Positions 8,801 to 44,686 of a DNA stretch of 64,000 bases are shown piece after piece (the stretch's first letter is position 1; each line of letters starts with the position of its first letter). The position numbers and the translations under genes are program-made. The stretch is from contig JAGUCH010000007.1 in assembly GCA_019096065.1 (NCBI GenBank), positions 4,920,501 to 4,984,500 of the forward strand, read 5' to 3'. Below the pieces are notes generated by a model. The model searched no databases. It had not been told where the DNA came from and saw only the letters and a list, made by a program, of their open reading frames with translations. Source of the DNA: Paracyclopina nana (Eukaryota > Arthropoda > Copepoda > Cyclopoida > Cyclopettidae).

Positions 8801-11800
8801 TTTGGCCATCAAAAGTTAGCATGCAAGTGTTCAAACTGACAACACTTCAGCCTCACTAATCTTAAGAAAGCAGCTTTTTGCCAACTTTTTCATTTACTCA
8901 AAAAACCTTGCAAACCAACTTGAATCAATTTTAATCATATCAAGGAGTTAAAATGCTTGCTTCTCATCCATAAACAGCATTTGATTGCTTAAAATCGACT
9001 GAGTCATGGCTCCATTTTGGATCCCTGCTGCACAGTAGCAGTTGCAAAATTTCGCCAATGAAGGCTCCCTTTTGCAAGGTGAAAGCCCTCAGTTGGCCTT
9101 GAAAGGCAGCCGACTGTCTGAGTCTGCGAGGAAAGGCTGGGGCTTGCAAAGGCCATGTCTGCTTTCACTCTCGTTCCTCTTCCGGACTTGCGAGTGCACA
9201 AAATGCATCCTTTGCTTGGCGCCTAAACAGACATTTTTAGCTATGCATTGATGGATGTGTTTGGGAATCGAGCCAACAAAAAGTTTGAATTTTTATTCAT
9301 AATCTCGCGGCCTCAAAAGTGAGATGATGGCGCGAAAAATGGTCTCAAGACTTTTGCCCTTGGCCGTTTGCCCTTGGTCTATTTGCCCTTGGCCGTTTGC
9401 CCGTAGAGACTTTTGCCCATGAGACTTTTGCCCTTGGGAACTTTTGCCTGTAGGATATTTGCCCTTGAGACTTTTGCCCTTGGGGACTTTTGCCCTTGGG
9501 GACTTTTGCCCTTGGGGACTTTTGCCCTTGGGGACTTTTGCCCTTGGGGACTTTTGCCCTTGGGGACTTTTGCCCTTGGGGACTTTTGCCCTTGGGGACT
9601 TTTGCCCTTGGGGACTTTTGCCCTTGGGGACTTTTGCCCTTGGGGACTTTTGCCCTTGGGGACTTTTACCCTTGGGGACTTTTACCCTAGGGGACATTTG
9701 CCCTTGGGGACTTAAGCCCTTGAGACTTCTGCCCTTGAGAACTTTTGCCCTCCTTAACTTATTGCCCTTTGTGACATTGGCCTTTTGGGACTTTTGGCTG
9801 TGGGTCTTGGTTGTGGGGACTTTTGCCCATGAGCACTGTAGCAGGGAGTGTGTCGGCCTACGGGTCGACTGCTTGCTGCGCGCGCTCGCCTCGGGCGCGC
9901 GATAGTTTAACGAGTAGTATAGTGTGACCATCAGTAAAGGAAATAAATTCACCGCATTGACACGTGTTGTCTGCGGCCCAAGATCGACCTCTGCTTGCCT
10001 TCCAGGCCCATCCCCGCTAGACGTAGCCTAGATCCGAGTAGTGGCTTGATAAGTCACAGTTGTATATCTCGACCTACTACAGGACTTTCTATTGGTTGCT
10101 TTTACTATGTCCAGTAGATCAAAGGGCCTTGTACACGCACACAGACAAAATTCAGATTTAATTTTCATTATTCTCTAATTGTAGGTTAAAAGCAAACTAT
10201 CAGAACTTCAAAAAAAAAAGTTCAAAAAGGGCAAATGTCCCCAAGGGCAGAAGTCACCAAGGGCAAAAGTCCCCAAGGGCAAAAGTCCCCAAGGGCAAAA
10301 GTCCCCAAGGGCAAAAGTCCCCAAGGGCAAAAGTCCCCAAGGGCAAAAGTCCCCAAGGGCAAAAGTCCCCAGGGGCAAAAGTCCCCAGGGGCAAAAGTCC
10401 CCAGGGGCAAAAGTCCCCAAGGGCAAAAGTCCCCAAGGGCAAAAGTCCCCAAGGGCAAAAGTCCCCAAGGGCAAAAGTCCTCAAGGGCAAAAGTCCTCAA
10501 GGGCAAAAGTCCTAAGGGCAAAAGTATCTAAGGGCAAAAGTCCCCAAGGGCAAAAGTTTCAAGGGCAAAAGTCTCCATGGGCAAAAGTTCAATGGGCAAA
10601 AGTACCAAGGGCAAATGGCCAAGGGCAAACGGCCAAGGGCAAAAGGGACGCAGCCGCGAAAAATAGCCCGAGGCGATGCATGCCCTAAATTGCACGATGC
10701 GCTTTCCAAGTGGCGCCAAATTATGATTTATGACTGGGCAACTTTTTCGCTGGTGCAGTTTAGGTTTGGCTCGGCTGAATTATATGCACTGTACATGCTA
10801 TTTGTTTGGCAAACTGGCAATAGGTAAAATTGCAACGACGCATTATGTACTCTGACGCTGTCTAGACGTCTATAAATGATACTAGATAAAAGGTGGAGGA
10901 GCGCGTTTGGTTGTGGGCAAAAAAAGTTGACATGCAATTTTTGATCCCAGGCAGAATGTGAGAAATCTGTCTAGTCATTCTTTCTTGGAGTACAGTGCAT
11001 TTGCTCCAGAGGATTACATAAATTAGCTTATTTTTAAGGAAAATATATTCTTGCCATGCTCGGATTGATTCGAGGAAAAACTAAGGCTAGCAATTATTTG
11101 GCAGGGAGGAAAAGTTGATTGGACACACTGTACGAAAAGTCTCGCGTGATATCTATGGATGTGTCATTAATGCACTTTTAAAAGGCTCAACTTCCATATT
11201 GAAACGAAAATTACACTCTTCTGCAGAGAGCCATGATTCAGCACAATTTTCAGGGAATAATGAGGCCAGCTGGGGCTGAGACAAGCACGCAACAAAGCAG
11301 CTTTGGATCGAGCTGAACCTGAAATTTGCAATCTAAGCTAAAAAAACAGGCCGCAAAATCTTGGGCTCGCGTTTTGCGTCTCTCCTAATAACCCTGTAAT
11401 CGAGCTGAGCCGATCCAGACGCTTTAATTATTTGCTTGAGCTGCCTTGCAATCTTCTCCAGCTCAGCAACTTGATGTTTTTCTCCGCTAATTTTTGGAAA
11501 TTCGTTTTTCTGCAGACTTTGCATGTTGGAAAATTCGAGGCCTGCTATTTTCGAATTTTCACAAAAACACTTGCTACATGAAGTAGCACTATTTCAGCTC
11601 TGCAAAGTTTTATTTAGAGGATAGGGCATGCTATTTTGCAATTTTATAGCCTTTTTGCCTCCATATCACTACTGATGTACGCCATCTTTGGAGAGAACTT
11701 GAGAAGCTCGAATTTCAAAGCCCTATAAACAATATTCAAATTGGAGTCCACTGCGAAAATCAGATCAATTCAGCTTGCATTTCCATCACTTCTTTCCTCC

Positions 11801-14800
11801 GAGCAATCAATTTTTGCAAAAGCTTTCCATTCAGAAATCATTCAGATATTGCATCGACTTTTTTCATAATACTAATTTTTCCCCCTCCTGCAAAATGCCT
11901 TTCCATCAAAGCTTGCCATAATCCATCACATTCAGGAATTTCGGAACGAAATCCAGAAAAAAAAATCAATCATTTTTATTGAAGCCATGATTGCTGTGCA
12001 GCCGCATCATGGAGGCGTAATTCGAGTTTTCCCGGAAAATCAGTCGTGTCGCAAATGAAGCTGTCAAAAAGACAATAAAAGGCGAAATAATAAAAGAGTG
12101 CAATTTTGGCGTTGCGGTTGCGTTGCCCAAGTCTCGACGTCGCGAATTTTTTGCGCAGCCGTCGTCGTTGTCGAAGAGGGCGGTGCACTTGGAGAGCACG
12201 GCGTGACAATCGGCCTCTAAAAGGCCATCGGCTCAGAATGGGATTTCAATGAGGCACCGGCCCATTGTGCCCCGCTCACTGCACAGGTGCTGCGAAAAAC
12301 GACGTCTGCATGGATGTCTGTGAGACAACTGCATGGATGTCTGAATGCACGTCTGGCCTTTCTCCTCGCAAGATTAATGCGCGCAAATATTCCTTTTCTC
12401 ATCTTTGGCCGTTTATAGCGGGATCCCGCCACATATTCTCCGTTTCATATGAGTAACGCTGCAACGAGAAAATCAGCCTCACTTGTGGCGCCACCTGCAT
12501 TTTCCGCGCTGCAATATTCGGGAGTAAACAAACATCTTGCGTTTTGCGCGCAATGTTTAATTTCTCGCCATAAATCAGTCAAGCCTGCAGAAGTGGGTGA
12601 AGAAGATTTGCACGTTTTTTCCAAAGCTCTCAGTGCATATCTCCTTGGAGCAGCATTTGCAATGCACCAACTTGAAGTTGCTGTTGCAAAGCAGCTAGAA
12701 ATATTTTTTTCGCTGCATTTTGCAGCAGCAGCTGCTGATAAAAATTATCGCATGTCCTTGGGCATTTAAAAACACACATGCTACGTAGGATGACGTACTG
12801 AGCAACTAGAGCATGCCTAAATGAGTTGGGAGGATGCAGCACTCTTGCGAAATGTCCTTGTGCAAAATATTTCTCGGGAGGAAAAGTTTCCACTGAATGC
12901 ATTTAGTAGGTTGTGCACTGATAGAATAAACTCATTTTGCATTCGATGCACATTAATGGCGAAAAAATGTTGATGTTTCAGTCTGATGCATCGTCCACAG
13001 ACGACAGCAGCGGTAGCATTGGCGGCGGCGGCACAAATGCAAAAAGGCCGAAATTGGAAGAGCAAGAACAGCAGCAGCAGCATTCGAAAGCGAGTTTTAG
13101 GCCCTGGAGCTGCCATTCGGAGGATGTGGCCGCAGCCACAGCAGCTGCGGCTGCGGCCACGGCCGCGGCCGCCGAAACGGCCAGAAGAGGCCACTACTAC
13201 CAGAGTAAGTTGATGCTTATTTTTCAAAAAAAAATCTGTTTGAAATTTCGCGCGCTTTTTTGACTGGCTGTCACTCAGCTGACGATGATGCACCGGTGCA
13301 CTGGCTGGCGCGGGAAATAAATGCATTTACTTTCACTAGTTCGTTGAAATTGCATTGCAGACATAAATCGGCATCACTTTTTTGGCGAAGACCCGTCCCA
13401 TTATGTCGACGAGGTCAAGCAGAGTTTGGCTGGTGAACGCGGCCTGAGCCCGCGAAATCGGGACCTCGTCATGGAAGTCCTTGGAAGGCTCGCGGATAGA
13501 GTGCAATCCGCGGAGAATTCCAGAAACGTTGTTGTCAATGAGCTTGTTAGTCTGCGAGAAAGGTTCCAGGTAATCCACGGCGCTTTTCAACAACTTCTGG
13601 CCACTTTTCCTGCCTATCATACCTTGCTGACTAACTCGCATGCTTGCTTGCTAGATTCTAGCGTAACATCATTTTGCCTTTCCTTGTACCTTTCATAGCC
13701 GCCATCCGAGTGATTTCTGGCTGTTTTACACAATTTATGGCTATCTTTTCATACTCTAGTACTGTACACACGCTAGGTATCGACTGTAGCGCCATCTAGC
13801 GGATGTATGTGAAAACAACGCTTATTTTGCTTGATGTCACTCAAAACACTCTAATATTTGTAAATGATTGTTCCCCTTCATAAAATCTAAATTAATTCCA
13901 ATTAGATAGAGAGTTAAAAGAATCTTTAAAAATATCTTATCGAATCAAAACAAAAGTTTGCATGAATGGCCTAGGGCGTATGAAATTAGTAGTGTACGCT
14001 AACCAAAGTGAATCTTGCAAAGTCCAAATGGGATAATATGAATTCATTTTCATTATTGTAGAACCTGGAGGCCGAACTGTCGAAGAAATGTGATGAATTG
14101 CGGCAGTTGTTTCTCCTGCAGCAGCAGCAGCAAAGTAATAACAGCTCTGAGGCCGATCTAACCTCGACCTCTTCGCCATCGCCGCCGACTTCCACTGCAA
14201 TCCTGAGGTCACTCCGCAAAAACAAGATGGACGACGACGATAACAGTAACTCTAGCTTCATGTTTGAGCCCAACTACAATAGGCCTACCACCACCTGTGT
14301 CACCGCACTCAATTTCACGAGAGAAATCGAAAGCCTCAAGGAAAACCTAAAAACTCAGGTGAGAGTCGTATTTTTTGGCTAATTAAGAGCGGCGCTGCTC
14401 GCTGGGAAAAAATGCTGTCAAGTCTGGTCGCGCGCAATTTCAAGTTGTTGCATATAAATGCACCAAAGATTGTCAGGGAAGATAACAGTTCCTCATTGCA
14501 AAATGGCGGCGGTATGTGCAAATGGCATCAAGTGCATCGAAAGTGCACCACGCCATCATATCAGCCAAAACAGGAATAGTAAACAACTTGAAACTTTCCA
14601 ACTTTACCACCATCAGTCTGGCAAATCTAGCCACTTTTGCATAGGCCATAAATCAGATTGCTTTACCGCATATCATTAACGACGCAGATTGCCATAAGGA
14701 AACTTACCGAATGACTAGATGCAGCATTCCTTACTTTTTTCCAAAAGATTTGCCAGTTTCTGCTACGGTCAGCTAGTGATTCGCTTCATTCATTGGCGCA

Positions 14801-17800
14801 ATAGCCTTAATGGAACAACAGCTTTGAATAGGGATAATTCCTACACGAGATGGCGCTGGGAGCTCCATCGGGGCAGATTATTTTCCTAATTCAAGGGTTT
14901 CAGTGGGTTTTAATGGACTTATGAGGCAAACTTGATGATATTTCGTCGCATCGAAGTGAGTTTGGCATTTTTAGCTAATTGTAAACCGAGTTTTAGAGAC
15001 TTTTTTTTCGGACTGCCCCGATGAGCGACTGAAGCGCCACTCTGTGCTAAAATACCGCAACTAAGTTCCACTAAGGATATTCACGCAAAACCGCTTAAGT
15101 AAGGCGAAGAAACAAATCAACTCCAACCTCAATATATACACAAGACATCGCCTGAAAGTTTTTTTACCCTTCCTGAATTTGCGCCAACAGCTGACCCCAT
15201 TTGGAATAGTTCAGGGGGGATTTTTACCCAGTAAAGTGTTCCAAATGAGTACAGCTGATTTCCTCATTGGGTAACCCAATAACGAAGTGCAATGAAGTCG
15301 CGGAGGAATTTGTAGAACAGGAATGAAGCAAGCAATTTTTCGAACCTTTTTTAACAAATGTCTGCTTGCCAATCTCGGGTGAACTTTTTATGTTAGAAAG
15401 TCAAGTCGTTTTAAGTTAGACACGCCAAGTTACTTTAGGTTAGACAACGTCTATGCTTTTGTGTAGACACCTTTTGGCATAGTTGGATTTTGTTAGAAAG
15501 TCAAGATATTTTTATTTAGACACCTTTTGGCATAGCACTTTTAGCGTAGACAGATTTCATGGACTAGTATACTTTATGATAGACACCTTTTGGCACAGTA
15601 CTTTTTGAGTAGACACAAATTAGTGACTAGTATGTTTTAGGTTAGACACCTTTTGGTACAGTACTTTTAGCTTAGACACACCAAGACGTTTTAGGTTAGA
15701 CACCTTTTGGTACAGTACTTTTAGCTTAGACACACCAAGACGTTTTAGGTTAGACACCTTTTGGTACAGTACTGTTAGCCTAGACACACCAAGATGTTTT
15801 AGGTTAGACACCTTTTGGTATAGTACTTTTAGCTTAGACACACCAAGACGTTTTAGGTTAGACACTGGGTTATCAAGCTTTGCATTTTTTGGGTTTCAAG
15901 CTTTTTCAAGTTTTTCATAATTTGGTTCAAGCTGGGTTTTAGCTTCAGGCTTTGCAGTTTTAGGGTTTCAAGCTTTTTCAAGTTTTCAAAATTTGGTTCG
16001 TCAGTAATTCGTCAGAGTGACAAGAGCTTATTCAAGAAAGTAGACAAATTGTTGGCATTTGCATAAAACTAGTATTGCTCTTTTACATTACTTCGAATTA
16101 TGATTAAATAATGCATCATTATGATTTTCATAAAAGAATTATCAGGGACTTTTCAAGTGGGGTGTGTCTTGACATGTCTTATCTAATAGTGCTATGCCAA
16201 AAGGTGTCTAACCTAAAATGTCTTGGTGTGTCTAAGCTAAAAGTGCACATTGACTTGAAGAAGGTCCTAACCCAAAATCTTAACAACACCCAAAAAATAT
16301 ACATTTTCTGAAAGCATATGTTCTTAGGGTTCATTTGGTAGCAATTTAAAAATCCTGGCCTATCCTATGGCTTCCCATAACATAAAATTTTCAAAAACGT
16401 CTAGCACCTACAGTTTATTATTTTATGAGATTATTAATAGCAGTGACCCTTCATAAAAAAGGAGATCTAACTTTTCTTATTTCATAAGCAAGTCTGTAAA
16501 ATGCACCCAAAATGAGATATTTGTTGCCAAACTTATTGAGCAAAATTAATCAAGGTGGCAGTAATCAACTTTTAGCATAGCTATATCTCCGTTTCTGTTC
16601 ATCCTAGCCATTTTACTATGAAGTAACTTAAGTTTTATTTTTGAATTTTAGTGGGGGTCATTGAAGCTAACTATCCCCAAAAAATGAGCCGTTTTTGCGC
16701 AAAACGTTTTTATGTATATAAACGTTTTATATTATTGGAAGCTAAAGGCCAGGATTTTTATTTTATCACCAAATGAACCCTTGGGACATAAGCTTTCAGA
16801 AAATATATAATTTTTGGGTGTTGCAAGTAGTTTGGGTTAGGTCCTTTGCCAAGTCAATGGGTGAACTTTTTATGTTAGAAAGTCAAGTCGTTTTAAGTTA
16901 GACACGCCAAGTTACTTTAGGTTAGACAACGTCTATGCTTTAGTGTAGACACCTTTTGGCATAGTTGGATTTTGTTAGAAAGTCAAGATATTTTTATTTA
17001 GACACCTTTTGGCATAGCACTTTTAGCGTAGACAGATTTCAAGGACTAGTATACTTTATGATAGACACCTTTTGGCACAGTACTTTTTGAGTAGACACAA
17101 ATTAGTGACTAGTATGTTTTAGGTTAGACACCTTTTGGTACAGTACTTTAAGCTTAGACACACCAAGACGTTTTAGGTTAGACACCTTTTGGTACAGTAC
17201 TTTTAGCTTAGACACACCAAGACGCTTTAGGTTAGACACCTTTTGGTACAGTACTTTTAGCCTAGACACACCAAGATGTTTTAGGTTAGACACCTTTTGG
17301 TATAGTACTTTTAGCTTAGACACACCAAGACGTTTTAGGTTAGACACTGGGTTATCAAGCTTTGCATTTTTTGGGTTTCAAGCTTTTTCAAGTTTTTCAT
17401 AATTTGGTTCAAGCTGGGTTTTAGCTTCAGGCTTTGCAGTTTTAGGGTTTCAAGCTTTTTCAAGTTTTCAAAATTTGGTTCGTCAGTAATTCGTCAGAGT
17501 GACAAGAGCTTATTCAAGAAAGTAGACAAATTGTTGGCATTTTGCATAAAACTAGTATTGCTCTTTTACATTACTTCGAATTATGATTAATTAATGCATC
17601 ATTATGATTTTCATAAAAGAATTATCAGGGACTTTTCAAGTGGGGTGTGTCTTGACATGTCTTATCTAATAGTGCTATGCCAAAAGGTGTCTAACCTAAA
17701 ACGTCTTGGTGTGTCTAAGCTAAAAGTGCACATTGACTTGAAGAAGGTCCTAACCCAAACTCTTAACAACACCCAAAAAATATACATTTTCTGAAAGCAT

Positions 17801-20800
17801 ATGTTCTTAGGGTTCATTTGGTAGCAATTTAAAAATCCTGGCCTATGGCTTCCCATAACATAAAATTTTCAAAAACGTCTAGCACCTACAGTTTATTATT
17901 TTATGAGATTATTAATAGCAGTGACCCTTCATAAAAAAGGAGATCTAACTTTTCTTATTTCATAAGCAAGTCTGTAAAATGCACCCAAAATGAGATATTT
18001 GTTGCCAAACTTATTAAGCAAAATTAATCAAGGTGGCAGTAATCAACTTTTAGCATAGCTATATCTCCGTTTCTGTTCATCCTAGCCATTTTACTATGAA
18101 GTAACTTAAGTTTTATTTTTGAATTTTAGTGGGGGTCATTGAAGCTAACTATCCCCAAAAAAGGAGCCGTTTTTGCGCAAAATGTTTTTATGTATATAAA
18201 CGTTTTATATTATTGGAAGCTAAAGGCCAGGATTTTTATTTTATCACCAAATGAACCCTTGGGACATAGGCTTTCAGAAAATATATAATTTTTGGGTGTT
18301 ACAAGTAGTTTGGGTTAGGTCCTTTGCCAAGTCAATGTGAGTACTGTATCAAAAGGTGTCTAACCTAAAACGTCTTGGTGTGTCTAACCTAAAACGTCTT
18401 GGTGTGTCTAAGCTAAAAGTACTGTACCAAAAGGTGTCTAACCTAAAAGGTCTTGATGTGTCTAAACTAAAAGTACTGTACCAAAAGTTGTCTAACCTAA
18501 AATGTTCCTATCACAAAAATGGTGTCTACTTTAAAAGTGCTATGCCAAAAGGTGTCTAACTTAAAGCATACCAGTTATTCAGATTTGTCTAACCTAAAAG
18601 TACTATGCTTGTGTGTCTAAATTAAAACATCTTGACTTTCTAACAAAATCCAACTATGCCAAAAGGTGTCTATGCTAAAACATGACAGTCATGAAAAATG
18701 TGTCTAACCAAAAATGACTATGCCAAAAGGTGTCTAACTTATTCCGACTGTACAAAATGTGTCTAGCTTAAAGATGGCACCCAAGTCAATGTGAGTACTG
18801 TATCAAAAGGTGTCTAACCTAAAACGTCTTGGTGTGTCTAACCTAAAACGTCTTGGTGTGTCTAAGCTAAAAGTACTGTACCAAAAGGTGTCTAACCTAA
18901 AAGGTCTTGATGTGTCTAAACTAAAAGTACTGTACCAAAAGTTGTCTAACCTAAAATGTTCCTGTCACAAAAATGGTGTCTACTTTAAAAGTGCTATGCC
19001 AAAAGGTGTCTAACTTAACGCATACCAGTTATTCAGATTTGTCTAACCTAAAAGTACTATGCTAGTGTGTCTAAATTAAAACATCTTGACTTTCTAACAA
19101 AATCCAACTATGCCAAAAGGTGTCTATGCTAAAACATGACAATCATGAAAAATGTGTCTAACCAAAAATGACTATGCCAAAAGGTGTCTAACTTATTCCG
19201 ACTGTACAAAATGTGTCTAGCTTAAAGATGGCACCCGCCAATCTCTCTAAATACACGTGTCTGGTTTCTACTCATAAATCAAATTTGTTGGTTTAAAATC
19301 TTCCTCAAAGAGCTCTTTTCCGTGAAAATATCTCGAACTACAGCAGCGATGAACATATACGTTAAGCTTCGACTATGCCTTAAAAAGGTTGGCTCGTTTC
19401 TCCAAACCGAGTAACGTCACCAGCTTCTGATTGGTCATCGCAAAATTGCACCACATTTTGATTGGTCTAAGAGTGCTATTGTTTCGTAGAGCGTTTTTAC
19501 ATTAAAATTAGACAGAAATTGTCTGAAGCAGCGCCACCTTTAGCAATTGCGGCGAAAATGGCGAGCGCCAAAGATATTCGCGTTTGCATCTCTAATTTTC
19601 GAGGAGCTAGTGGTTGCCGAAAAAAAAGTTGACTGCAAATTGCAACGCTATTTTTATGACAAACTCATGCAAATTCTAGCATGGTCTGCTGGTTGTGCAA
19701 AAAGTGGGAATACTTTTTTTTGCATCTGCACAGCGCAGGAATATATAATTTGATATGGGTGCATTTTGTGTGTGTGTGTGTGTGCAATTGCGATATCAGG
19801 CCAAAGAGGCTTTGCCTTTGTGTCGCGACAAGTTACTGCACTGGTCGGCCATTCCGGACTCCGGACTTTTTCCGTGTCCATGATTGATTATTACCTTACA
19901 TTATGAAAGGACAGCTTCTATGTTCGGTGCAGTTGCCAATTGCCATTTTTTTTTCACTCAAATGTCTGGAGGAACGAGAAGTGCTTTTTATGATTTGCTA
20001 GGCAGTAAAATAGTCTCATTATCTTTCGAGTGATCTAAGCGTGTATTGGTGTCATTCTAAATTCAAGCCTTTCTTTTCTTTGATGGCACAATTCAAAAGT
20101 TTTGATTGTAAGCTTTTTAAAGGCAGAAGAACACCCCATTATAAATTCTTCTTATTGATTAGAGCTGATTTGCGATGGACTCATAATTCAAATTCCAAAA
20201 TTGTCGTGTTAATAGTTTAAAAAAATCTGCAACATGTGGAATATAGAAGCTGTCTTGTTGATATTTAGACATTTAAAATTGTAGAATCCTCTGAAAGTCT
20301 GTACTTGCTTTTATAGATTATTTGCGGAAAAAATGCAAGCTCGGTGTATCGAAAATCGAGGACAATCTGTGTATTTATGTATTCAAGGTGTTGGAGATTA
20401 TTTAATGGCAAATAGGCCGTTAAAAGGTGATCTGTAACGGCGATGAGCTGCTGCGTCCCTTTAATGCAGCCTTAAATATTCTGCAGACAATTTACAAGCT
20501 AGAGAATATGCAATCCCAACCGTCTAACTTGTGCACATTCTACAACTATCGCAGCAGTGTACTACAGTACGCCCTTTTGGCAAAATGCATCAAGCAGCAG
20601 CAGCAGCAGTCGAATTCACAGCACCAACAGTTGTAGTAAAATGGCAATGCAATTTTCAAGGCCAAAACAGGGAGACTACTATCTAATTCCCGGCTTCTTT
20701 TTTCTCGCAGGATTCAGATTGTCTGAGAGAACGGATGCTGACGATTGAGAACCAGTTGAAAAAATTGCAACAAAGGCTTGTGATCAAGTCTCAAAACTCC

Positions 20801-20920
20801 ACAGAGGAAAATCTGAACAATAATTCTCCGCAAGAAGTCATTTTGGTACGAGAGGCCGAAACGTCGGCTAATGTCGCTGAAGATACTGACCAGGACAAGA
20901 ATTCCGATGAAAATACGTAA
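2886..20920 (+). CDS. Snoo: Ski/SnoN family transcriptional corepressor
   Basis: Exons: 2841-3337, 3426-4003, 5247-5488, 12982-13204, 13361-13569, 14062-14358 and 20711-20920; phases agree throughout. From ATG 2886 the product is 736 aa. An in-frame ATG at 2823 also exists, but a good acceptor (tctttgtcag) ends at 2840, so I prefer 2886; an upstream coding exon is possible. The N-terminus is Gln-rich and basic. Next come the Ski/Sno/Dac fold (GGEMRLCFPQILKQIL, then CGLITKSDAERL) and the Smad4-binding SAND-like domain (HECFGK, CPTSKCISCDICG, CHWGFDATHWRSY). A Ser/Gln/Ala-rich linker and a Leu-rich coiled coil (NVVVNELVSLRERFQ, ENQLKKLQQRL) close the protein. Family members repress TGF-beta/Smad targets in the nucleus. 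A Fussel/CORL paralogue is the main alternative. Introns of 7.5 and 6.4 kb hold mobile elements. Confidence 0.85.
4130..4587. mobile_element. hAT-type MITE (442 bp) with 13-bp TIRs and 8-bp TSD
   Basis: The element runs 4138-4579. It begins CAGGGTGACCAGA and ends with the exact reverse complement TCTGGTCACCCTG. The 8-bp flanks are aatgcatc (4130-4137) and aatgcgtc (4580-4587), a target-site duplication with one mismatch. The interior is AT-rich, with many copies of a 'tagccac' word near both ends in inverted arrangement, and has no coding capacity. A CAGGG-type TIR plus an 8-bp TSD fits non-autonomous hAT elements. It sits in an intron of the Ski-Sno gene. Confidence 0.85.
6550..6564 (-). promoter_or_regulatory. 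CTCF-like motif
   Basis: The + strand reads agcgccatctagcgg. Its complement CCGCTAGATGGCGCT matches the vertebrate CTCF consensus CCASYAGRKGGCRSY except for one A/G difference. The same 15-mer recurs at 13788-13802. Confidence 0.5.
9332..10664. mobile_element. Foldback element of 16-bp repeats with 9-bp TSD
   Basis: Perfect 9-bp direct repeats gcgaaaaat at 9332-9340 and 10656-10664 flank a 1,315-bp insertion (9341-10655). The left arm (about 9341-9836) is a tandem array of the 16-bp unit ggggacttttgccctt. The right arm (about 10230-10655) holds the same unit in reverse complement, so the two arms can pair. The outermost 19 bp of the two ends align without gaps and share GG....C....CTTTTGCCC. 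There is no transposase. The structure resembles Drosophila Foldback and Mutator-like foldback elements, in which long terminal inverted repeats are made of short direct repeats. A 9-bp TSD is typical of Mutator-like elements. The class is inference; the structure is seen directly. Confidence 0.85.
9837..10081. mobile_element. Candidate solo LTR inside the foldback element
   Basis: The non-repetitive centre of the foldback element includes a 245-bp block that starts TGTAGCAGG and ends CCTACTACA, an imperfect inverted terminal repeat with TG...CA ends. It contains an AATAAA at about 9944 and a GC-rich first third. These are features of an LTR, probably of a Ty3/Gypsy-type retrotransposon. No target duplication is visible (agcac versus ggact), so the borders or the call may be wrong. 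No internal retrotransposon coding sequence is present. Confidence 0.5.
13788..13802 (-). promoter_or_regulatory. CTCF-like motif
   Basis: A second exact copy of agcgccatctagcgg, in the intron between Ski-Sno exons ending at 13569 and starting at 14062. It is 7.2 kb from the identical copy at 6550 and in the same orientation. Confidence 0.5.
15368..19245. mobile_element. Internally amplified foldback element with 9-bp TSD
   Basis: Perfect 9-bp direct repeats gccaatctc at 15368-15376 and 19237-19245 bracket a 3,860-bp insertion that starts GGGTG and ends CACCC. The left part holds tandem copies of a 54-bp unit containing 'ggttagacaccttttgg'; the right part holds the same unit in the opposite orientation ('ccaaaaggtgtctaacc'). 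It therefore forms a foldback like the 9.3-kb element but with an unrelated repeat. Internal amplification is visible: 15379-16860 (1,482 bp) is repeated at 16861 to about 18336, and a 454-bp block starting near 18337 is repeated at about 18791-19236. No transposase is encoded. Long peptide-like frames across it (VSNLKRLGVSKLKVLYQK repeats) are by-products of the 18-codon period. Confidence 0.85.
15379..18336. repeat. Tandem duplication of a 1.48-kb segment inside the foldback element
   Basis: 15379-16860 and 16861 to about 18336 align end to end with scattered substitutions and small indels (for example a 5-bp difference near 16370/17848). Each copy contains the 54-bp array, a unique central stretch and a single inverted repeat unit. 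The divergence shows that the amplification is not an assembly echo of one sequence. Confidence 0.85.
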
Positions 20921-21273: not shown

Positions 21274-22180
21274 GAATAATCACAACTACTTCGTGGATTG
21301 TAATTAACAAATTATGTTTCCTCTAGGCGTAACTATGCGATGCTAACGTGTCTTCTTCGCGTATTATTTTTGCAGCAAAGGTTGCGTGAGTCCTGTTTAC
21401 AATGTTGCGAGCATTAAGAAATCCAGCTTTCCTAAAAGTATAGTTGGTTGCGAAAATGGCAAATTTCGATACAAGCTGGATTTTAAGCTCTACCCTAACT
21501 TTATTACTAAGCACCTGAATTTTGGGCCATTTCATTTCCACTTGGTTTTTCTAACAATAAACCTCACAAACAAGCTATTTTTAACTTGATAATGTCTCAA
21601 TGAACGTGTGAAACTTTAATTTTACTAGAAGAGTTGCAGTTGTGTATGCTCGGGATTTACTCTGACGGAGCCAATTGATCATTTCAGCTACGTGACTTTT
21701 CGCGATATCTAACGAATGACTAAGACGTATGTGAAGTAAAAGTGCTATTTTATATTTTCGAAAGTTTCAAAAGGGAAAAAAAGAAAAAAAATCTTTTTCA
21801 TAATCAAATGATTTTCTTTTTGATTGGGTGGAAACCGGAGTACCCGGAGTAAAACCACCCGAGTCAGTCATTGAACGTGGAGACATCAATGCCTGCAAAG
21901 AGGAGAAAAAAGTTTATACTAGAATTCAAGGAATGAGTTCAATTAGAACGTACCTGACTCAAAGTTGGGGGCCAGCATTTGGAGCTGCTCCAGAGTCCAG
22001 TCTGTTGCATCTCACCAGGGGGACGACAGGGACAGTGTTGAAGACAACGCGGCGACCATTGCGAGAGACAAATTGAACCATATTCAGACTGTCGGAGTGT
22101 TCCTTCCCAAAAACGATTGACGATGATGAATTTCAAGCAAAGACCCCACACGCAAAGGAACACGATTGACAACAGCGCAA

Positions 22181-25023
22181 GAATTTGGGCCCAAAGCAGG
22201 AGCTCGCCAAATTCTCGCCGAAACCTCCAGGAGTCGGACTCTTCTTCATCTCGGATGATAACGTTCCTTCTTCTGCATCCAGTCTTCTTCCAATGCTAAC
22301 CTACTCCTAGCCCACGGAGGAACCACCAACCACACGAATATTTCGAGCAGCGAGACTTGGAGAGATGAAGATGAAAAATAACGGCTGTCAAGTCTCGAAT
22401 AATGCGATGGAAGAAGCTAATTCTACACCAGTCTTGCCCTCTCCTTGCCCATTTGAGCCTCTTGCGAGGCCTCTTCTGTGTCCAGTACCGACAACTGGGC
22501 CCACTGCAGGAGCTCACCAGCCTCGGTTTATCTTCTGCAACCAGGTCTTCTTTGAGAACGTTCCTTCTTCTGCAGCCAGTCTTCGTCGGAAATAGCCAAG
22601 ATCATTTTTTTTTAAGTGAAGATTTTTTCGCCGCGTCAGAGACAACCCGGAAAAACTCAGTTGACGTGTGTCGCCTGCCAAAGTCAGTTGCGACTGGGTA
22701 AAAAAGTAGAGTGCCCCTTATTGCTTGATTTTTCGAACCACTGAAGAAGACCCGCAAATTCTTCGAACCCATTAATTTGTCTGCGACCCAGCACGACGAG
22801 AACCCTTGTGATTTTGCGATCGAGCTTGCCAAGATAGTAGTAGTAGCCGTAGTACTCAATTGGGGGAATTTAGGGGGTGTACCACCGAGACGAACCTCTC
22901 CCACAACACATCCATATGGAGGAACCTTCTCTCAACTTGCGTCAAATTTTTTCAAAAATCCACACCTTGATTGCGGGGGCAGTAAAATTTTCGCTCTCCT
23001 ACTTGAGATGTGTGGACGTAGCCTAACTTGAGCAGACATCTTTTTCTTCAATCCTAACTGCGTGCCACCTTCTTGCATTGCCACTGCTCTCGTCTTTTTG
23101 CATACACATACAGTATTATGTCAGAGGCAAAGAGAATAATTACGGGGCTCAGTAACAGCTGCGCCCCCTCAAAAAAACCATCTTTTGTGCAGATTTCAAA
23201 ACATGGCCAAAAAGAAGTTACATCAGCACTTTACACACACAGCAGAGTCATTACATAATTGCCTAAGCTGCTTGGCCTTCCTTGCTTTTCTTTTTTAGTG
23301 TGTGCATGTAAGGTGGCAAAATTGCCCTAGTCTAGTGGGAATGAAATGGTGATAATTACAAATACGCCTGGGCCCTTGCGGAGCTCTCCAGGTTGCATTG
23401 TGGTCACTTGCTTGCAGGTCCTTTTCGACTACTTTGATGGATGCGTGTGGTGTTGTTGTTGTCGTGGCGTTTTTCCAGAATGGTAGAAGTTGCCACATCT
23501 CTCGCAAGATTGGGGGAGAGCCATGAATTGAAGAAAGAACATCACTTCTTATTTCTAGTTGGCCTGGGCCCTGTGGAGCTCACCAGGCATCTCTATTTCA
23601 CTGTAACACTTGGACAAAGACATTTTTTAAGGACACATTGGGCTTACTTGGTCACGAGGACCACAAACCACGTGGTCGAGGCGTGTGTGTAAACAACAAC
23701 AACAACAGCTGCGATAATCTCCAAATGATACGACGCACTGTTTCTTTAGCTCTCGCTCTCTGGGCCTGTAACATAGGTTAGCCAGATACTTGGTGCCAAT
23801 GCACACTTACATGAGCCTGGGCCCATGCGGAGCTCTCCAGGCTTGAGCTGCAATCATCCTCTCGCTAGCCACACACTAGAAACTCGACAAGTCCGCCTTT
23901 TGGCCGGCGGCGCCAGTAGAAAGTCCTGTCCTTCACCTATAAAAGGCACCACAACACATTTTTTGAGGGCCCTACCCTAGCTAAGGCTGTGAGCTACACA
24001 TCAGCAATTTTTTTCAACTTATCTTCAGACTTTTCTGCTTGATAGGTAGGGCACCGTAAATCACCACAGCTGGATGCTCTTTAAGAAGCACTGACCACAA
24101 TTTCGACTTTTTCTCGTGGCGGCTGCAACAACAATCAAAACACACTTCTTTGTTTGGCGGCCCTGCCCTAACGTAACACTCTAGTTGCATGCTAATTGCA
24201 AAGAACTTATCTGTCGTCGACTCTCCAAATATGGGCCATTTTGGTTTTGGGGGCCACAGACACTACAGGGGTGCTGTGCTGATTTCTAGCTGAAAGTAGC
24301 AGAAATGGTTTTCTTTTTCGACACCTACCCACTATTGTTGCTTTTATAAAAAATAAATCTAATAGAAAGCTAAAAGAGGTTTGTTTGGCTTTTTATAGTT
24401 GCACTTATCTCGCCTCGGGTCCACGCACTCGAAGGGGGGAAAGCCGAGCTTTTATATCTTCATATTTTTAAAAGTCGTCTAAAAAGAAAGGTGACAAAAG
24501 TTTGTTTACGTAGGGCAATACCTGAGTCGACTGTCAGTTCTTAAACTGAGCCCAGGTCACCTAAGATTTTTTTGGGAGGGCTCTGCTGCAATGGAAATGT
24601 GGTGAGCACTAAGAGAAAAAGTATTGACCTTTCAGCTTGAACGTCCTCCACGTGGTCGCTGTTACGTAACTAAATCGGAATCTGGAATCGGGTCTGGAAA
24701 ATGCAATACATTTTGAATGCCTACCTACCCTAGCTAACAAATTGCTAGTGTTCTGATAATTCACTTAACCTGTTGCGTCTGGAGAGATACTCAACAAATC
24801 CGAGATTGTGTTGCGAAATCTGAACAGAGCCTGTTGAAAAAGGGAAAAAGGCACTTGGGCCCATGCGGAGCTCTCCAAGTTGCATTTGACGAGAAAAAGT
24901 ATCTAAACTGCTTACCGCTGCCCGGGCCCACAGGAGCTCACCAGGCAGACAGGCAGAACTGGGCTGGCCAACGAAGGCAATTACTAGCATAGCCATGACT
25001 TGGGCCCTTGGGAGCTCACCAAG
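22181..25023 (+). repeat. Family of eight covarying stem-loops (TGGGCCC...GGAGCTC...CCA)
   Basis: Copies lie at 22181-22214, 22495-22520, 23367-23392, 23562-23588, 23814-23843, 24853-24880, 24918-24948 and 24999-25023, all in one orientation. Each has a conserved inner GGGCCC, a 3-8 nt spacer, GGAGCTC, one variable base and CCA. The outer stem changes in a compensated way: GAATTTGG/CCAAATTC, CTGG/CCAG, CCTGG/CCAGG, GCCTGG/CCAGGC, AGCCTGG/CCAGGCT, ACTTGG/CCAAGT, CTTGG/CCAAG. The copy at 24918 has one C-A mismatch in eight pairs. Sequence outside the hairpins is mostly unrelated, although the regions around the first two copies form a diverged repeat about 297 bp apart. This implies selection or origin at RNA level. 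The identity is unknown. Confidence 0.75.
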
Positions 25024-28000
25024 CTGCTCGGCTAAAAAAGAAAAGAAAAAGGCAGCGCAAAAGCCGCCTCCGCTTTTTCGGAGTTGCACACATCAACACA
25101 CACACAACTGTGTTGTTATACAGCAAGCACATCAATATAGAAGTACTATTAGCTGCAGCAGCCATCACATTTCCCGCCAACTTTAAGATCACTAGAATAA
25201 CTTGCTCACCAACCACTGCCAGCTTTTTAGCTTCAGTTACTTATCAACATCAGCTGCTGATCTTCTCCCGTTTCTCTCACACAGATTTACTCTTTTGCGT
25301 GCAGTGGCAACACTTTTGGTTCCAGGCACAGAAGACAAACACATCTGGTATGTCCTAATTGGATTTTTCCCACTCTGACGACAAATTATGGAAAGAATCT
25401 GCAGCAGAAGCAGCAGCACACTCAAGTGATCATCACATCGCACACACCCCCAAACAGCGTGGGACCAGGCCTGTTAATGGGGGACATTTAAGTGGTAGGT
25501 ATTTAAGCTCTTGCAGTAAACTTTTTTGAGTTTTTTTTGAGTGTGTGCAAAAAGTTTTGAAAGCTCTCTCCTGCACAAGAGAGACTGGTACGTGTGATTT
25601 TCTTCAATTATACTTCATGCTTTTAGTAAAAGGGAGACTAAGAAGTATAGTAGGAAGCAGTTGCAGTAGTGAATCTGAAAGAAATTTTGAAGTAACTTAT
25701 ATGAGGAAAATGAATGTAGATCAATATATACCAATGGAAGTTTAACTTTTGGTACATGGGGAAAATTCAACCACCCAAATTTGTTTTAAAAGTTACACTA
25801 CTGTAGTAGCAATTAGCTGTTGTGACACCCTAACATATGATGACAGCAGCATCACCAGTGCTCCAAAGATATCCAAAAAAGCACAACATAGTGAATTAAT
25901 CATAACTTAACTTGGGACACAATACAAAATGGGACACTACACTGTTTTTAGATATGTACCAGTACAGTTTTGCTTGTAGGGCAAAGGATTTGTATCTTGA
26001 GCTTGACCCTACACCTCTTGCACTTTTTTAAGCGTATTTACAACCAAGTAGTTAAAGGACTAGATTTTCTTTTTGCTGAACCCTTGATAAGTGGTTAAAA
26101 TGTTTCCTTGGTGCGTGAAGTTAATATAAATTATGTCCATCTACCAGAGTAGTGAGAGAATACTGTAGACAATGCAAAGTCATACGAATACATAATTAGC
26201 AGCAGCAGTAGCAGCAATATAGCATGGCTATCAAATCCAGACATAAAACAAAAGGTGATTCATAAAAGTCCTTAACACAGAGCAAACATAAGATTTCTAT
26301 CTTCTTTTGTGCTAAGGATGTAGGATTTAAGGCAAATAGCAGCAGCAGCAGCAGCAGCAAATACAGTGAAAAATATCCAACAATATCAAAAAACATTTAA
26401 ATCAAATATGGTAGCAGAATAAACCATCAACACAGCCCATCAACCAAAGAAATGACAAGTATTGCTCTCAAACCTTCAATCAAGCAGAAGTTGCAGTACA
26501 AACTGAGTGCATGTCATAAATTCCCTTCCTCTCGACTCTTGTGTAAAATAGCAATCATGGTAGGTTAATTAGTTGCAGCTAATTTATGCAAACTATATGA
26601 GTATGGTGGCACCACCCACGTGCGAGTAATCATTGTAGTAGTAGAGCAGCTCTTAGTCTTAATCTTTTTTGTTGTAGCAGAAGTTGGCACTTTTTTTTCA
26701 ATAAAAAATGCAACTTAATTCTGGGTGTGTGAATAATCCCCTTGCCCATCTTCATGCAAGCCAAGCATACAAAGTTACACTATTTACACAACAATGATTA
26801 AAGAATGCTAAATGACTAGGTTTTCTATCTTCAAATTTGCGCTTGAGTTGGGTCATCTTTTGATAGCAGCAGGATAGGACAAGCACTATCAGAACAACAT
26901 TAAGTACTTCACTCTTGTGCTTTTTTCTCTTGCTTGTTGCAGTGGGAAAAACTCAAAATTATGATTTATAGTAGTGGTAGTTGTAGTAGTAGAACTAGTT
27001 GAGACGGGTCGTAGTAGTAGTAGTAAATAATTTCCGATTTATATCTTCTCCAGGCATTGTTTTGAACTAAATCACCTGGTTTTCTTTTGGGACGGACTAT
27101 GTCCTATTTTCTCCCTCTTTTTCTGTTTGACATACCCATCCTTTAAGCGCCTTTTTCATGGTAAAACTAAAAAGGCAACAAAAAGATGCAAAACTTTTTT
27201 GGGTACTTTAAGTGTGTGCAAGTTAGGCTACTCCATTCGCTTTCGTTTGGCCGAGAAGGAAAACAACAAAAAGTATATGCTTTTATGAACAATCACAAGA
27301 ACTGTCATGAAACATGGTTTCTCTTTAAATGGAGCAACAGTACAGCAAAAAGGAGAAAAAAAGGGGAAAAACTACACGGCCTGTGGCTGAGAGTAGTTAT
27401 ACAAGCTTTTAAAAGTGATTGAGATAAAACTCGAGAAAAAGAGCAGAAACTAAAGGCAAAAACATCATTTGAAATAATGCATATAGTATATAGTAAGTAT
27501 TAATCAAAGAGGCCGCAGGCGAGCACTCGGTATGATGAATTGGTAGCACATGAATATACTTAGCAATCATAAAGGCTAGTATAACAAAAACGAGAACTCT
27601 GCTACTAAAATGAGGGACGAATTCAGGGTGTAGAAGTGTTCTGGTAAATGAGTGAAAGTAGTAATAGTAAACTTTGAGCATACAGCATGATTTATATCTT
27701 CTTTTCTGATATGAGTGCAACTCTACAAAAGACCCAACATGTAGTAGTAGTAGTAAATAAGAGCCCAAGAATGGAGGTGGTAAGAGAAATTTATCGTTTT
27801 TGAAGTCACATGCAGTTTTGATGATGATGATAAATAACATCACTTGATATTTGACACTTTTTTAAAAAAAAGAGATCAGAAAAGCTAAGGCACTCTGATG
27901 TGTGAACATTCAGGGCCTTATTAATTAAAGGTCTTTAAAAAGATACATATGGATGATGGAAAAAAGGACTGACAGTCAGCATTAAATTGACACTCAGGAA

Positions 28001-31000
28001 ATAATTATAGATGAGAAACACTAGCACTGCATGACCAACAGAAAAATTTAAGCTGTTAGAGAGGCTAGAGTTGAAGCAACTTGGTGGCTGATGGTGAACC
28101 CATTTTGACAGCCAAATTTCAAGCTTGAAAAAAGTGTGTGAATGGTTTTTTGTTGCTGTAGCACTTGTGTGGAGACAACTTGCATTTACTCTGAGAGCCT
28201 ACTATTTAAAAGTATCTGGCATTATTAGTGGTACATCTAAAATGATCTCTCATCATAATGGCAGCAGTCTAAGTATTCTCCCATTAGAGGACATGCATAT
28301 TTGAGCTTTAAACCAGTCAAAATAGCAATAGATAGTAGTGGGACTCTGGTTGTGAAAAGTACTGTATGAAAACACTAAGAGTGAGGCCAGCAATATTAAT
28401 GATAAATGTAGGCTAAGAGGTGGAACTTGAAAAGCTATCAAGATATTCAACAACAGCTATTTCATGTCATATAGTAGAAGGAAATTTACAGAAACTCTGT
28501 GCATGGAACATGGACACATGCATGATTTTTTTATCTTGCTAAATAAAACAAGAGCAACTATTCCACCAATCAAGTGTGGGCAATAGTCACTGCCGTACTA
28601 TAATAATAAGATAAAGAGACACATTGGACGTAGTAGCAGCATTAGAAGGTAAAAAGCAGCACATAATCATATATAGTTGCTTTGTAGGTTCGTTTTTAGC
28701 TTTAGAAGTGGTAGTAGTAAAGTTTAACTAGTTTCGGTTGTAGGTTGATTTTTTACACTGATCATCTCAAAACGACGAGTAATTAGAGCGGTAGTAAGGT
28801 ACGTAAAAAAGTGGCTGAACAACCAGCAGAAACAATGTGATTATGATAATTGTCTTCAGCAGCAATAGTAGTAGTGGTAGAGAGATATGCAGTAGTAAGC
28901 TTTTTGAAACTTGAGAAATATATAGTAGGATACATGCCCAACTTCACAGTCAGTTTATGTGAAAGATGGTAAGATGATGATGATAAAAAGGCTATACGAC
29001 ATGAGAAGTACGCACATGTTCATGAGAGAGTGAGTTGCTGTAGTATTTATATATATATCAATGTGTCTGAAAGGGGGAGAGTTGACTTTTGGAGAAAGAG
29101 GCGGAGAAGCGGCTCTCCAATTCCCTCTTTCTGTTGGTATATACCCTTTTTTATGAAAAAAGTGAACTAAATTAAAGCACAACGAAATGTAGTAGTTACA
29201 ACAAAAAGTGGAACAGCTGATAACGTATGAAGTCACCACCGTGCATAGCTGAAAGCAGGCGTCGGTAGCGAGCAACATAACATATTGTTATAAAGGGGGA
29301 AAAACAAACTTTCCATCATCTACAAAAACGGCAGTTTTGTTCGTTGTTGGTATAAACAGAACAAAGCTCTGCAACGCTGTGAGAGAAAGAAAAAATCTCG
29401 TTCAAAACAACGGAACTTAGGGTGGCTTAATAATTATATGGTGATGCATATAATGGAGATAGAGAGTATAACAAAAACAACCAAAATGCAGTAAATATGA
29501 TTTACCAGAACTTGCCACCAAAGAAGATTTGTGACTGGTTAATTTAGTAGTAGCAGTAGTGAAAGTGTCCCATATGTATGTGCAAGAAGTTAAGTCAACA
29601 TTGAATATGAATTGTCAAGATAAAGAGAGTAGGGAACAACTAGCAAATCAATTTCCCATTCTCACTACTCTTGATAGCAGTAATAAGCAATAATTGGTCT
29701 AGTCACAACAACAACAACAACTGATGTTGCATTTAAAAAACAAAGCGAGCAGCAATAGAGGACTAAAAATCAGAGAAAAAGAATACCTTTTGAGAGGAGC
29801 AACAAAATGGGGTGCACCACTTGGAATGGAAGTTGAGGGACACAGTGTGTAGTAGTAGTAGTAGTTTTGCCACAACATGAACTTTGATTCAAGGGGTAAA
29901 GTTGCAGTAGAAGTGAAAGCTTTTCTCTCTCTCAGTCTGTGATATTGTTCTTATGTGATAACCAATTATGTTGAAGCTGCAGTCTAAGTCATGTAGCAAA
30001 TAGTACCACGGAGAAGGAGCCATTATATGAACACAGAAATCTGCTTGCAACACTCACTGACATAATAGAAAGAAGTAGGAAGGCTTTTTCTCTTTTGAAT
30101 ATTCTGCTCTGAAGCTGATGTAGTAAAGGGGACTCAGTTCCGGGTCAAGTGGGAATGAGCAACAAGGGCATCTGCACATAGCCATCTAATGGTTGAAGGT
30201 GGATGTCAAGTATACTTTTTTCGAAGTGTGAGGTAAGCTGCCATTTTGCAAACCATCATCTTACTTGAATACATTTCAGATTTCTATCTTGAACAGTACT
30301 GACTTGAGTAGTAGTAGTAGCAGCAGCAGGGAAGTAGTAGCTTTTTGCGAGAGAAGGCATATAAAGGCTGCAGCTTATTAAAGACCATGCCAAGCTTGCT
30401 TCAAAGATCACAGCAACAACTTTTGGGGGTATTTAGCACAGCATCTGCAGCGGGGACATCTTGAAAGCTTTCTGTTTTTGGACTGATAGACTTGTTGCCT
30501 GTTCTGGAGAAGCAGCATAATCTACCTAAGTTTAGTGGTAGCAATGTAGAATTAAAGGCCTCGTAAAGGCACACCACCGTAGCATGCAAAGATGTTACAT
30601 CATAATTAAGATTGCTTACCAATCAATAAGTAATGGTAAACAAGAGCAGTGCTTGAAACTAAAAAAAGAAAGGAACACTTCTCTTCTTAAATGGACATTT
30701 TTGCTGGCTGGGAACAACACTTGGTGTTTTCTTAGTTTTCTTGCAAAAAGGAAGAAACAGTAGAAAGTTAAAAGTAGCTTGATGCACGCATCATTAGAGC
30801 ACATCAAATGTTAATCTACAGGTACAAATGCTGTGTACATGGAGATAATAAAAAAGAGCAAAAAAGTATATATCGTGCAAGATATAGCAATAACAGCTGC
30901 TGGTTTGCTGAGGTATAGTAGTAGTAGTAAAAAAGCGCCCATTTGCCCAGAATCAGTATGATTTCTATCTTGAGAGAGTTTTGGCGTAGTTGTAGTACGT

Positions 31001-31690
31001 TGTGGTAGTTGATGTCATGGGCATATTTAACAACAAATGAGTAGCAGTAATTAAAGTGGTAACAGTAATAGTTGCTTGTCCCTGCTCATTATGATAAAAG
31101 GTTAAAAGGCCAACCATACACATAGTAGGTCTTGTAGCGAAATGAACAAAAAAATGCGTCATTCTCGGGCACTTCCTTCCTGACCAGATTTGTGGTAAGT
31201 CAAACTCGTCCATATTTTTTCCTTTGGCTCTGGAGTGTGCAGCACAAGTGCGCAACAGCCACCTAGTCAAGCTACACAATTTGCTAGTAGGGGAAACAAG
31301 CAAGCACGCCAGCACTCCGGCGGCTTTTTTCTCTTTTCATGCCTAAATATCAGCATTAAGATAAGTGTGTTGAAAAAGGCAGCTACCTGTTCCTTCGGGG
31401 GCAAGAAGGGCCATTGATTTCCATTTCGTATTTCTCGTCGCTCGTCTCCCAACCTTTCCTTTCGTACGTATTTCCTTAAGCCACACATTTTCTCTCTCAA
31501 GAGAAAAATACAATTTCTCTCGCTCTCCTCCATTAGCAGGATTCTGCAGTCTCAAAAAGAAACTAGCGGTAGGATTTTGGACTCGTCCAACGAGCCCACG
31601 TCGCCTTGGTTTTTGCGTTTTTGCGAATTAATTATAGCTTCCCCGGTCGGCATTTTCTCGCTCGCGATCGTAGTAGGATTATATCTTGAG
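24449..31690 (+). repeat. Dispersed GATTT(M)TATCTT motif with TAG/AGC trinucleotide tracts
   Basis: Nine same-strand matches to GATTTMTATCTT[C/G] or close variants occur at 24449, 25987, 26292, 26819, 27036, 27689, 30279, 30960 and 31677. Between them lie more than a dozen (TAG)n or (AGC)n tracts, for example near 26338-26360, 27011-27025, 27740-27756, 29849-29862, 30307-30329 and 30916-30932. Some motif copies follow a TAG tract closely (27011 then 27036; 30916 then 30960). There is no tandem period and no open reading frame of interest. Confidence 0.6.
26337..26360 (+). repeat. (AGC)n microsatellite
   Basis: About eight uninterrupted AGC units. It is the longest of the AGC/TAG tracts scattered through 25-32 kb. 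Confidence 0.8.
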
Positions 31691-43137: not shown

Positions 43138-43600
43138 ACAACTACCACGTGTTCAAGGCTGCTATCAAAAAAGGGTTCAAACTATATGACACTACCTATT
43201 TCTGCTATATCCCTGCTTTTTTCCATCATTTATGATTGTACATAGAATAATTTTTATTTCGAAGAGAATAACTATCTTTAGCATTTTTGTGTATCCACTT
43301 CTATTCATTGGAGCTCGTTAACTCATCTTGTTAGAGAGGTAAATTTCCTGAGTGAGTTGGTTGAGCTGGAATTTCCTTGCTGAATGAGGAAAAAGTCGAG
43401 AAAGCCTCAAATTGACTACAAAGGGAAAATTCCACTTCTAACAGCGTTTCAGTGCCATGTTTACCTTAGAAAAAGTGCTCAAAAGTCTTAAGATATTTTT
43501 TGAAGGCTCACTTAAAAATTTCATTTTTCTCTAGACTCTAATTAGTAAAGTGAAAGCTTTTAGCCATTTGATCTTATCTGATGAAAGAGTGCAATCTTTT

Positions 43601-44423
43601 TTAATTCTCCCTTAGAAAGCGTTTCAGCTCAGGCGAGGACAAATATTGAGCTAATGGCAACAAAAGCATATCCATCACAATGAAAACGACTCCAGACACC
43701 CACATTTGTGCTTGCCACGAACCGCTCGCATAAATGGTCAAGGTGAAGATGGGGAAGCAGATTTTGGCCAAAAAAGCCAAAAGTTGGCCGCTGAGTGTGA
43801 TGGCATTTCCTCTATTTCGTAGCCTCACCAACTCACTCGTGATGATTCCTCGCTTGCCAATTTTCACATTGTGCGAATACAGTTCGAAATACAGGGCCAA
43901 ATAAGCAGAGAGCTCAATGAGAGCCAATGAAAAGAGGAGAATTGTCACACACTTCCTGTAAGCTTGAGCATCATCAGGATTTTGTCCGAATCCTTGATAA
44001 GCACTCATGATGTCTCCCATTGAATTGGAGAACCCATGGCAGAAATTGATGGCAAAAGCGTTGCCAGTCAAATTGTAGCCGAGAACTAAGCCGAAATGAG
44101 CCTGAGCGAAAAGCAGTGCTTCCACCGCATAGATGCAGCAAAGGATTCGTACTTTTTTCACTGCAGATCTGGTGTGGATTAGAATCAGACGAAAAACTGC
44201 AAATCCACAGCCATCAACGAAGGAGAAGTGCAAATACACTATGGACAAATGCCAGAGTGCGACGCAGCCGGAATCACCCACAAATTCGATAGATGGATGC
44301 ATTGTGACCAAGTAGGAGATCACACTGAGCGTTGGGCCAATTCCAGAGCACAGTTGGACGATTTGGCCAAAAAGGACCATGATATTGATGATTCGTCCCT
44401 TGGGAGCATAGTACAAAATGTAC
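43601..44423 (-). pseudogene. Duplicate 3' exon of the seven-transmembrane gene (copy 1)
   Basis: An 823-nt exon, 44423-43601, encoding the same 273 C-terminal residues as the 46124-46946 exon, with the acceptor intact. It has no first exon of its own: the only copy of exon 1 is at 47401-47262. It is therefore either a silent fragment or an alternative terminal exon reached by splicing over copy 2 from the promoter at 47.4 kb. The reading frame is undamaged, as expected for a very recent duplication. Confidence 0.7.
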
Positions 44424-44686
44424 CTAAAATTGATTCAGGAGTTTTTTAGAGGTCAAAAATCTTTGCCCTTGCGTTCATCAAAATGCTTTCATTAATTGAG
44501 ATGAGAGCTGTATCGCGTATTGAAAAAGCAATTTCCTTAAGAAATTCCCTTGCAGAGCAAAAAACTGGCCTTCTTTTAAATCCTAAATCCACATCTGGAA
44601 ATTTTTTTTTACTCTTTCTCAAGTATCTAAAATAAAGACAACTTCATTAATGCTTAGTAAATAAATGGGATAATCTTATTTTTTAG

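Follow-up and report, generated by a model that had tools for sequence, protein, structure and literature searches.

Described hairpin-array RNAs and the present locus

To our knowledge, few of the well-studied noncoding RNAs are built on a reiterated hairpin, and the best known of them serve dosage compensation. The roX RNAs of Drosophila carry several stem-loops. In dosage compensation of that genus, the long noncoding roX RNA presents a stem-loop that is bound by protein, as outlined in PMC6451107. Repeat A of XIST, the noncoding RNA of mammalian X inactivation, mostly comprised eight or nine cores, each GC-rich, 24 bp long and composed of two palindromes, and the effect of the cores was additive, according to PMC3734131.

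The DNA analysed here (the window) was the whole 64,000-nucleotide stretch C7:4920501-4984500 from a genome of 91,952,342 bases in 10 contigs, and all sequence comparison was made inside this single genome of ~92 Mb. Eight hairpins were located at 22179-25029. In likeness to repeat A as sketched in that source, there were eight cores, 21-24 nt long when the leading T or C was counted, and they held two palindromes, GGGCCC and GAGCTC. Moreover, a further motif domain adjoined the array. On the other hand, the gaps between copies were 30 to 1,001 nt long, whereas the same account gives spacers of ~20-50 bp that are T-rich, and none of the loops of 3-6 nt was ATCG or ATAC, the tetraloops it names for repeat A. 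Since sequence, fold and spacers all differed, the likeness is an analogy only and implies no homology. With roX the locus would share a protein-bound stem-loop in a long noncoding RNA, which is proposed here; it differed in having no Rfam match at the gathering score. The roX, TAR and 7SK families are included in the Rfam library. Considering all the evidence below, we judge that 21.9-31.2 kb probably encodes a long noncoding RNA not described before, whose hairpin array would dock a protein several times.

Genomic setting

The hairpin cluster appeared to be intergenic, inside a gap of ~10 kb, since the Ski/Sno-like gene upstream apparently ended at 20920 and the next longer ORFs began near 31.4-31.9 kb. 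This Ski/Sno gene encoded DHD and SMAD-binding domains (ORF 3388-4038). Its apparent last coding exon was at 20713-20920 on the plus strand, where an acceptor-like site preceded an ORF that was read as coiled-coil-like, with AATAAA at 21268; we infer a single gene from 3388 to 20920. GNAT and mTERF domains were found at 33.3-35.0 kb, beyond the next ORFs, and a splicing factor 1 gene was also present in the window; the presence of these genes marks the DNA as animal. The GC content of the cluster was higher than that of its surroundings.

Several other features of the window and the assembly were recorded. The large inferred intron of the Ski/Sno-like gene (15380-19230) contained, by eye, a minisatellite-like array (AGGTGTCTAACCTAAAA...) and apparently two duplicated blocks of ~1.5 kb. 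At 42142-46957 there was an apparent tandem duplication of ~2.5 kb, where the ORFs of 42142-44434 reappeared ~2.52 kb farther on, at 44661-46957, unchanged in length and with identical composition scores. TTAGG-type repeats were found at three of the eight contig ends read (the others had one CTGGC-type repeat, N in two cases and neither in two), and TTAGGG arrays were also found on C8. Together with the Ski/Sno gene, these repeats make an arthropod genome likely. A COX1 search gave no match.

Eight hairpins with an invariant core

The pattern GGGCCC-N(3-6)-GGAGCTC-N-CCA fitted all eight copies, spanned 22187-25021 and was on the plus strand in every case. Each hairpin was ~30-40 nt in size. 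Sixteen alignment columns, namely GGGCCC, GGAGCTC and CCA, were invariant in 8/8 copies, and the loop between the two core blocks varied from 3 to 6 nt while the core stayed fixed. Both invariant hexamers, GGGCCC and GAGCTC, were perfect DNA palindromes. The copies were scored against R1, a covariance model built from the eight copies themselves: copy 1 (22179-22217; 40.3 bits) had the longest outer stem and a loop of 6 on the plus strand, and was followed by copy 2 (22489-22527; 36.7 bits), copy 3 (23362-23398; 43.3 bits), copy 4 (23558-23593; 40.0 bits), copy 5 (23811-23847; 46.6 bits), copy 6 (24849-24885; 45.2 bits), copy 7 (24916-24951; 42.5 bits) and copy 8 (24994-25029; 39.7 bits).

The initial annotation, made from this sequence, had listed eight cores of the TGGGCCC type on one strand. 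The eight copies and their common strand were recovered, with the correction that seven began with TGGGCCC and the core of copy 7, at 24924, with CGGGCCC. The perfect stem attributed to copy 1 was present and slightly exceeded the 8 bp given for it, reaching 9 bp with GG/CC included. A suspected ninth copy at 21966-21992 was dropped, as an unfiltered search with the covariance model gave no match there at E up to 10. The description of the sequence between copies as mostly unrelated held: at 10-60 nt from the copies, the flanks were at chance identity (0.263 and 0.242 vs an expected 0.252). The exceptions were copies 1 and 2, which had in common a diverged block of 105 nt with 67.6% identity, and copies 3 and 6, which matched at 34/40 positions with a few common bases beyond the stem.

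Occurrence in the genome

When the window was shuffled 100 times, the pattern that fits seven copies had 0 matches. Genome-wide, GGGCCC-N(3-12)-GGAGCTC-N-CC had 10 matches, all forward; eight were the cluster copies and the other two were on contigs C2 and C4. The reversed control pattern matched eight times (three forward and five reverse). A core search with two mismatches, restricted to loop 4, returned 12 rows, including three exact cluster copies and one shifted reading of copy 8, and its 8 off-cluster matches compared with 7 for the control. As far as searched, a core cluster existed in the 92-Mb genome at this locus only, and the shuffles and genome-wide pattern searches together ruled out a chance origin of the hairpins. 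Contig C4 had one isolated hairpin-like core that also carried a stem (L001 1494-1535; 26.1 bits to R1); ~0.4 lone stem-bearing cores were expected by chance genome-wide, and this one is possibly such a chance occurrence.

The same searches bear on the idea that the hairpins derive from a mobile element, as its ends or as remnants of it. Inverted repeats that are short and multiple would suit such an origin, but we hold it to be very improbable, considering that core matches outside the cluster were at control level and that the 3.5-kb cluster and the 5.7-kb downstream neighbour each had one genome match, itself, in a search that passes over simple repeats and words of very high frequency. Copies dispersed through the genome, as for a transposon terminal repeat, were not found, and the hundreds of scattered copies that the initial annotation had named as a sign of a transposon end did not appear.

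Coding potential and known RNA families

At E up to 0.01, no Pfam family was detected in the seven ORFs (stop to stop, 100 aa or longer) overlapping 22179-25029, or in the ORFs 27412-27861, 28958-29287 and 30968-31336. Additionally, the hairpin copies fell in different reading frames. On these grounds a protein-coding explanation was rejected for the ORFs covered, in agreement with the earlier remark that no protein gene explains the region. A known RNA family was likewise rejected: no Rfam family reached the gathering score in the whole window, and at E up to 5 the only match in 21.3-31.4 kb was snoR14 (E 4), whose 20.4 bits were under the cut-off of 40. The tRNA search gave no match. A literature search for the hairpin motif gave papers whose titles concerned microRNAs or aptamers. 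The hairpin element is therefore called undescribed as far as the Rfam and literature searches reach.

Covariation of the stem arms

Pairing between the arms was assessed by permuting the 3' arms among the copies in all 40,320 orders, with the copies treated as independent. Fourteen pairing statistics were tried; between 4 (for the best) and 856 (for the weakest) of the 40,320 permutations reached the observed value. The Watson-Crick run was 33 vs a permutation mean of 16.6 and was reached by 4/40,320; the other four statistics of this set were reached by 40, 64, 280 and 704, and the nine statistics of a second set by 14 to 856. When the partner was slid by one to three columns, pairing on the plus strand dropped from 84% to at most 54%, and that on the minus strand from 85% to 62% or less.

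Other measures did not all agree. The number of pair types was within the shuffles (reached by 124/500 and 87/500), a partner slide of +1 left the covariation score close (0.203 vs 0.228 and 0.201 vs 0.269), and RNAalifold gave a small covariation term (-0.42 of -10.81) with both-side changes in 3/10 pairs. The inner stem was invariant and so contributed no covariation. Since copies 1 and 2 as well as copies 3 and 6 shared flanking sequence, the eight copies were not fully independent, and such a set, in part with common flanks, is few for covariation statistics.

The arm permutations bore out the claim that the stem arms differ and yet stay complementary. A selected hairpin element was well supported by its fixed core, the covariation of its arms, the unrelated sequence of the linkers and the single orientation and locus of its copies, and a variable loop with a constant core is as expected of a hairpin tip. 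The initial reading of selected RNA structure was partly supported, in so far as it concerned this element (core, arms, linkers, orientation and locus), which is a candidate for action as RNA from one strand or the other. Because an unchanging core was combined with complementary changing arms, a variable loop and one orientation at one locus, an RNA hairpin read by a protein that needs the core was the best explanation.

A serious rival persists at the DNA level, since both invariant hexamers are palindromic DNA. The array could then comprise eight sites for a sequence-specific DNA-binding protein that recognises both palindromic hexamers and prefers flanks that are palindromic too, and it would serve as a cis-regulatory element or insulator beside the Ski/Sno-like gene. 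A DNA-binding protein could read the two perfect palindromes of the core, and regulatory DNA commonly contains several sites of one type close together; a cluster that is GC-richer than its surroundings and appears intergenic would also fit. However, freely changing complementary arms and a variable loop are not obviously needed for DNA contacts, 8/8 sites share one orientation, and the adjoining domain is strand-asymmetric. Considering both sides, we find the DNA-level array unlikely, at somewhat more than one chance in four.

A strand-asymmetric domain downstream

Directly downstream of the hairpins there was a strand-biased domain, which the earlier account of the region had missed. Thirteen dispersed GTAGTAG clusters were found on the plus strand at 25803-30927, with 26 overlapping occurrences on the plus strand and 0 on the minus strand over 25551-31250. 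In the rest of the window, GTAGTAG was present 6 times on the plus and 5 times on the minus strand. The controls were 47 pieces of 5.7 kb, of which 7 came from the window and 40 were overlapping halves of 20 stretches of 10 kb taken at random; in them, the count of GTAGTAG per strand was 0.54 on average and never above 3. The words of the domain were picked because they were prominent there, which makes their enrichment post hoc; what counts for GTAGTAG is its strand bias and the effect size.

The domain also had seven GATTTNTATCTT-like elements at 25987-30972 on the plus strand, with up to 2 mismatches to GATTTCTATCTTC, starting at 25987, 26292, 26820, 27036, 27689, 30279 and 30960; there was one minus match, at 30041. 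With the same tolerance, GATTTCTATCTTC was found 10 times in 400 kb of control strand. Four of the seven GATTT elements were within 45 nt of GTAGTAG clusters, a proximity that 6% of random placements reached and that was not significant. Trinucleotide-repeat words of the domain included 43 AGT, 20 AGC, 9 ATG, 9 AAC and 2 AAT, and 0 of their complements. CAGCAG was not special, as its 14 plus-strand occurrences in the domain were matched or exceeded in controls (22 in one).

A purine-skewed stretch extended over 27001-31200 on the plus strand, with a GC skew of 0.09 to 0.25 in 600-nt windows. At 28001-30000 the skew was 0.195; among 100 controls of this size (2 kb), no absolute value was above 0.134. 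In the hairpin part it was approximately zero or slightly negative, and since the skew differed between the two parts, a single transcript through both was unsupported. AATAAA occurred four times on the plus strand and never on the minus strand in 25.6-31.2 kb. Acceptor-like sites in 21.2-31.6 kb numbered 8 on the minus and 4 on the plus strand, a surplus that could come from the pyrimidine richness of the minus strand alone. The skew and the motif bias suggest that the 25.8-31.2 kb part is transcribed from the plus strand. The sequence GGUAGUAG is bound by human hnRNP A2/B1, as indicated in PMC5789076; GUAGUAG-type sites could suit hnRNP A/B proteins.

Folding and the candidate RNA strand

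Single folds were only weakly better than shuffles on both strands (z from -1.94 to -0.06 on the plus and from -2.23 to 0.08 on the minus strand). On the plus strand, six of the eight copies folded into a stem, a UCN bulge, GC, a bulged A, CC/GG and the loop; copy 7 shifted the bulge and copy 8 folded otherwise. On the minus strand the same bases could fold into a lower stem, followed by an NGA bulge and an uninterrupted GCUC/GGGC stem that contains a U-G pair. This form was the predicted fold in 5/8 copies, copies 1-3 having a bulged U instead. In this form the fold of copy 8 conformed, and the C/A mismatch of copy 7 on the plus strand was a U-G pair.

Further details of pairing were compared between the strands. 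On the minus strand the five core-adjacent outer-stem pairs and the four inner pairs formed in 8/8 copies, whereas among the nine loop-nearest pairs of the plus strand, two were broken in one copy each. At arm positions 1-4, A/C mismatches in copies 2, 7 and 8 became G-U pairs on the minus strand, and one G-U pair was gained on the plus strand, in copy 3; farther out, both strands gained some. Summed fold energy was -114.1 kcal/mol for the minus vs -102.2 kcal/mol for the plus strand, and the minus strand was lower in 6/8 copies. For the fixed structures the values were -67.0 and -58.2 kcal/mol, with copy 7 supplying 5.4 of the 8.8 difference. Run pairing was reached by 14/40,320 permutations on the minus vs 226 on the plus strand. 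These folds gave a moderate preference for hairpins carried by a minus-strand RNA. The minus strand folded somewhat more cleanly despite the plus orientation of the core, so either strand could be the transcribed one.

With its lower stem, 5' bulge of three nucleotides and upper stem of four pairs, the minus-strand form resembles bulged hairpins of the TAR and 7SK type. Those hairpins differ from it in the sequence of bulge, stem and loop; moreover, the present hairpins had no Rfam match at the gathering score and were found in eight copies in an animal locus.

The strand data also raise a variant that overlaps with our preferred explanation, namely two neighbours: a leftward hairpin RNA from the minus strand and a separate plus-strand neighbour at 25.8-31.2 kb, which would be a noncoding RNA or the 5' leader of the next gene. 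The greater summed stability of the minus-strand folds, their rarer run pairing among permutations and the change of GC skew between the hairpin and downstream parts are consistent with it. However, the energy difference was modest and, in the fixed structures, came largely from copy 7, and 21.2-31.6 kb contained 0 donor-pattern words on the minus strand vs 3 on the plus strand. We treat the arrangement of two neighbours as a tentative possibility, with about one chance in three.

Two other sequence features were seen near the hairpins. TATA-like words were present on opposite strands at 23937 and 24398, between copies 5 and 6. On the minus strand at 25032, a tract of 16/16 pyrimidines with AG was found directly before copy 8; it is a possible splice acceptor, if the minus strand is transcribed.

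A model for the locus

In the long noncoding RNA explanation that we prefer, the eight hairpins would make up a multivalent platform on which an RNA-binding protein docks; this protein would read the fixed core and need the outer stem only to pair. The adjoining 5 kb would supply a second class of sites that are linear, GUAGUAG and AUUUNUAUCUU. Either one RNA or two divergent ones would then build a particle and exert their effect close to the gene they come from. The copies, their single locus, the covariation of the arms and the strand bias of the downstream domain were observed; transcription, protein binding and nuclear action in cis are the predictive part of this model. A bolder version is that this locus of a small, probably arthropod genome encodes an independently evolved regulatory RNA of the XIST/roX kind, in which an eight-unit hairpin domain and an hnRNP-type UAG domain would act in cis on a chromosome or on a developmental neighbour; we consider this version doubtful, with roughly one chance in eight.

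Since the element has a sharp sequence signature, its transcription, strand and binding partner should be easy to test. If the model is true, this unrelated design, with its fixed core, freely covarying stems and eight copies, would point to a repeated evolution of multivalent docking by hairpins.
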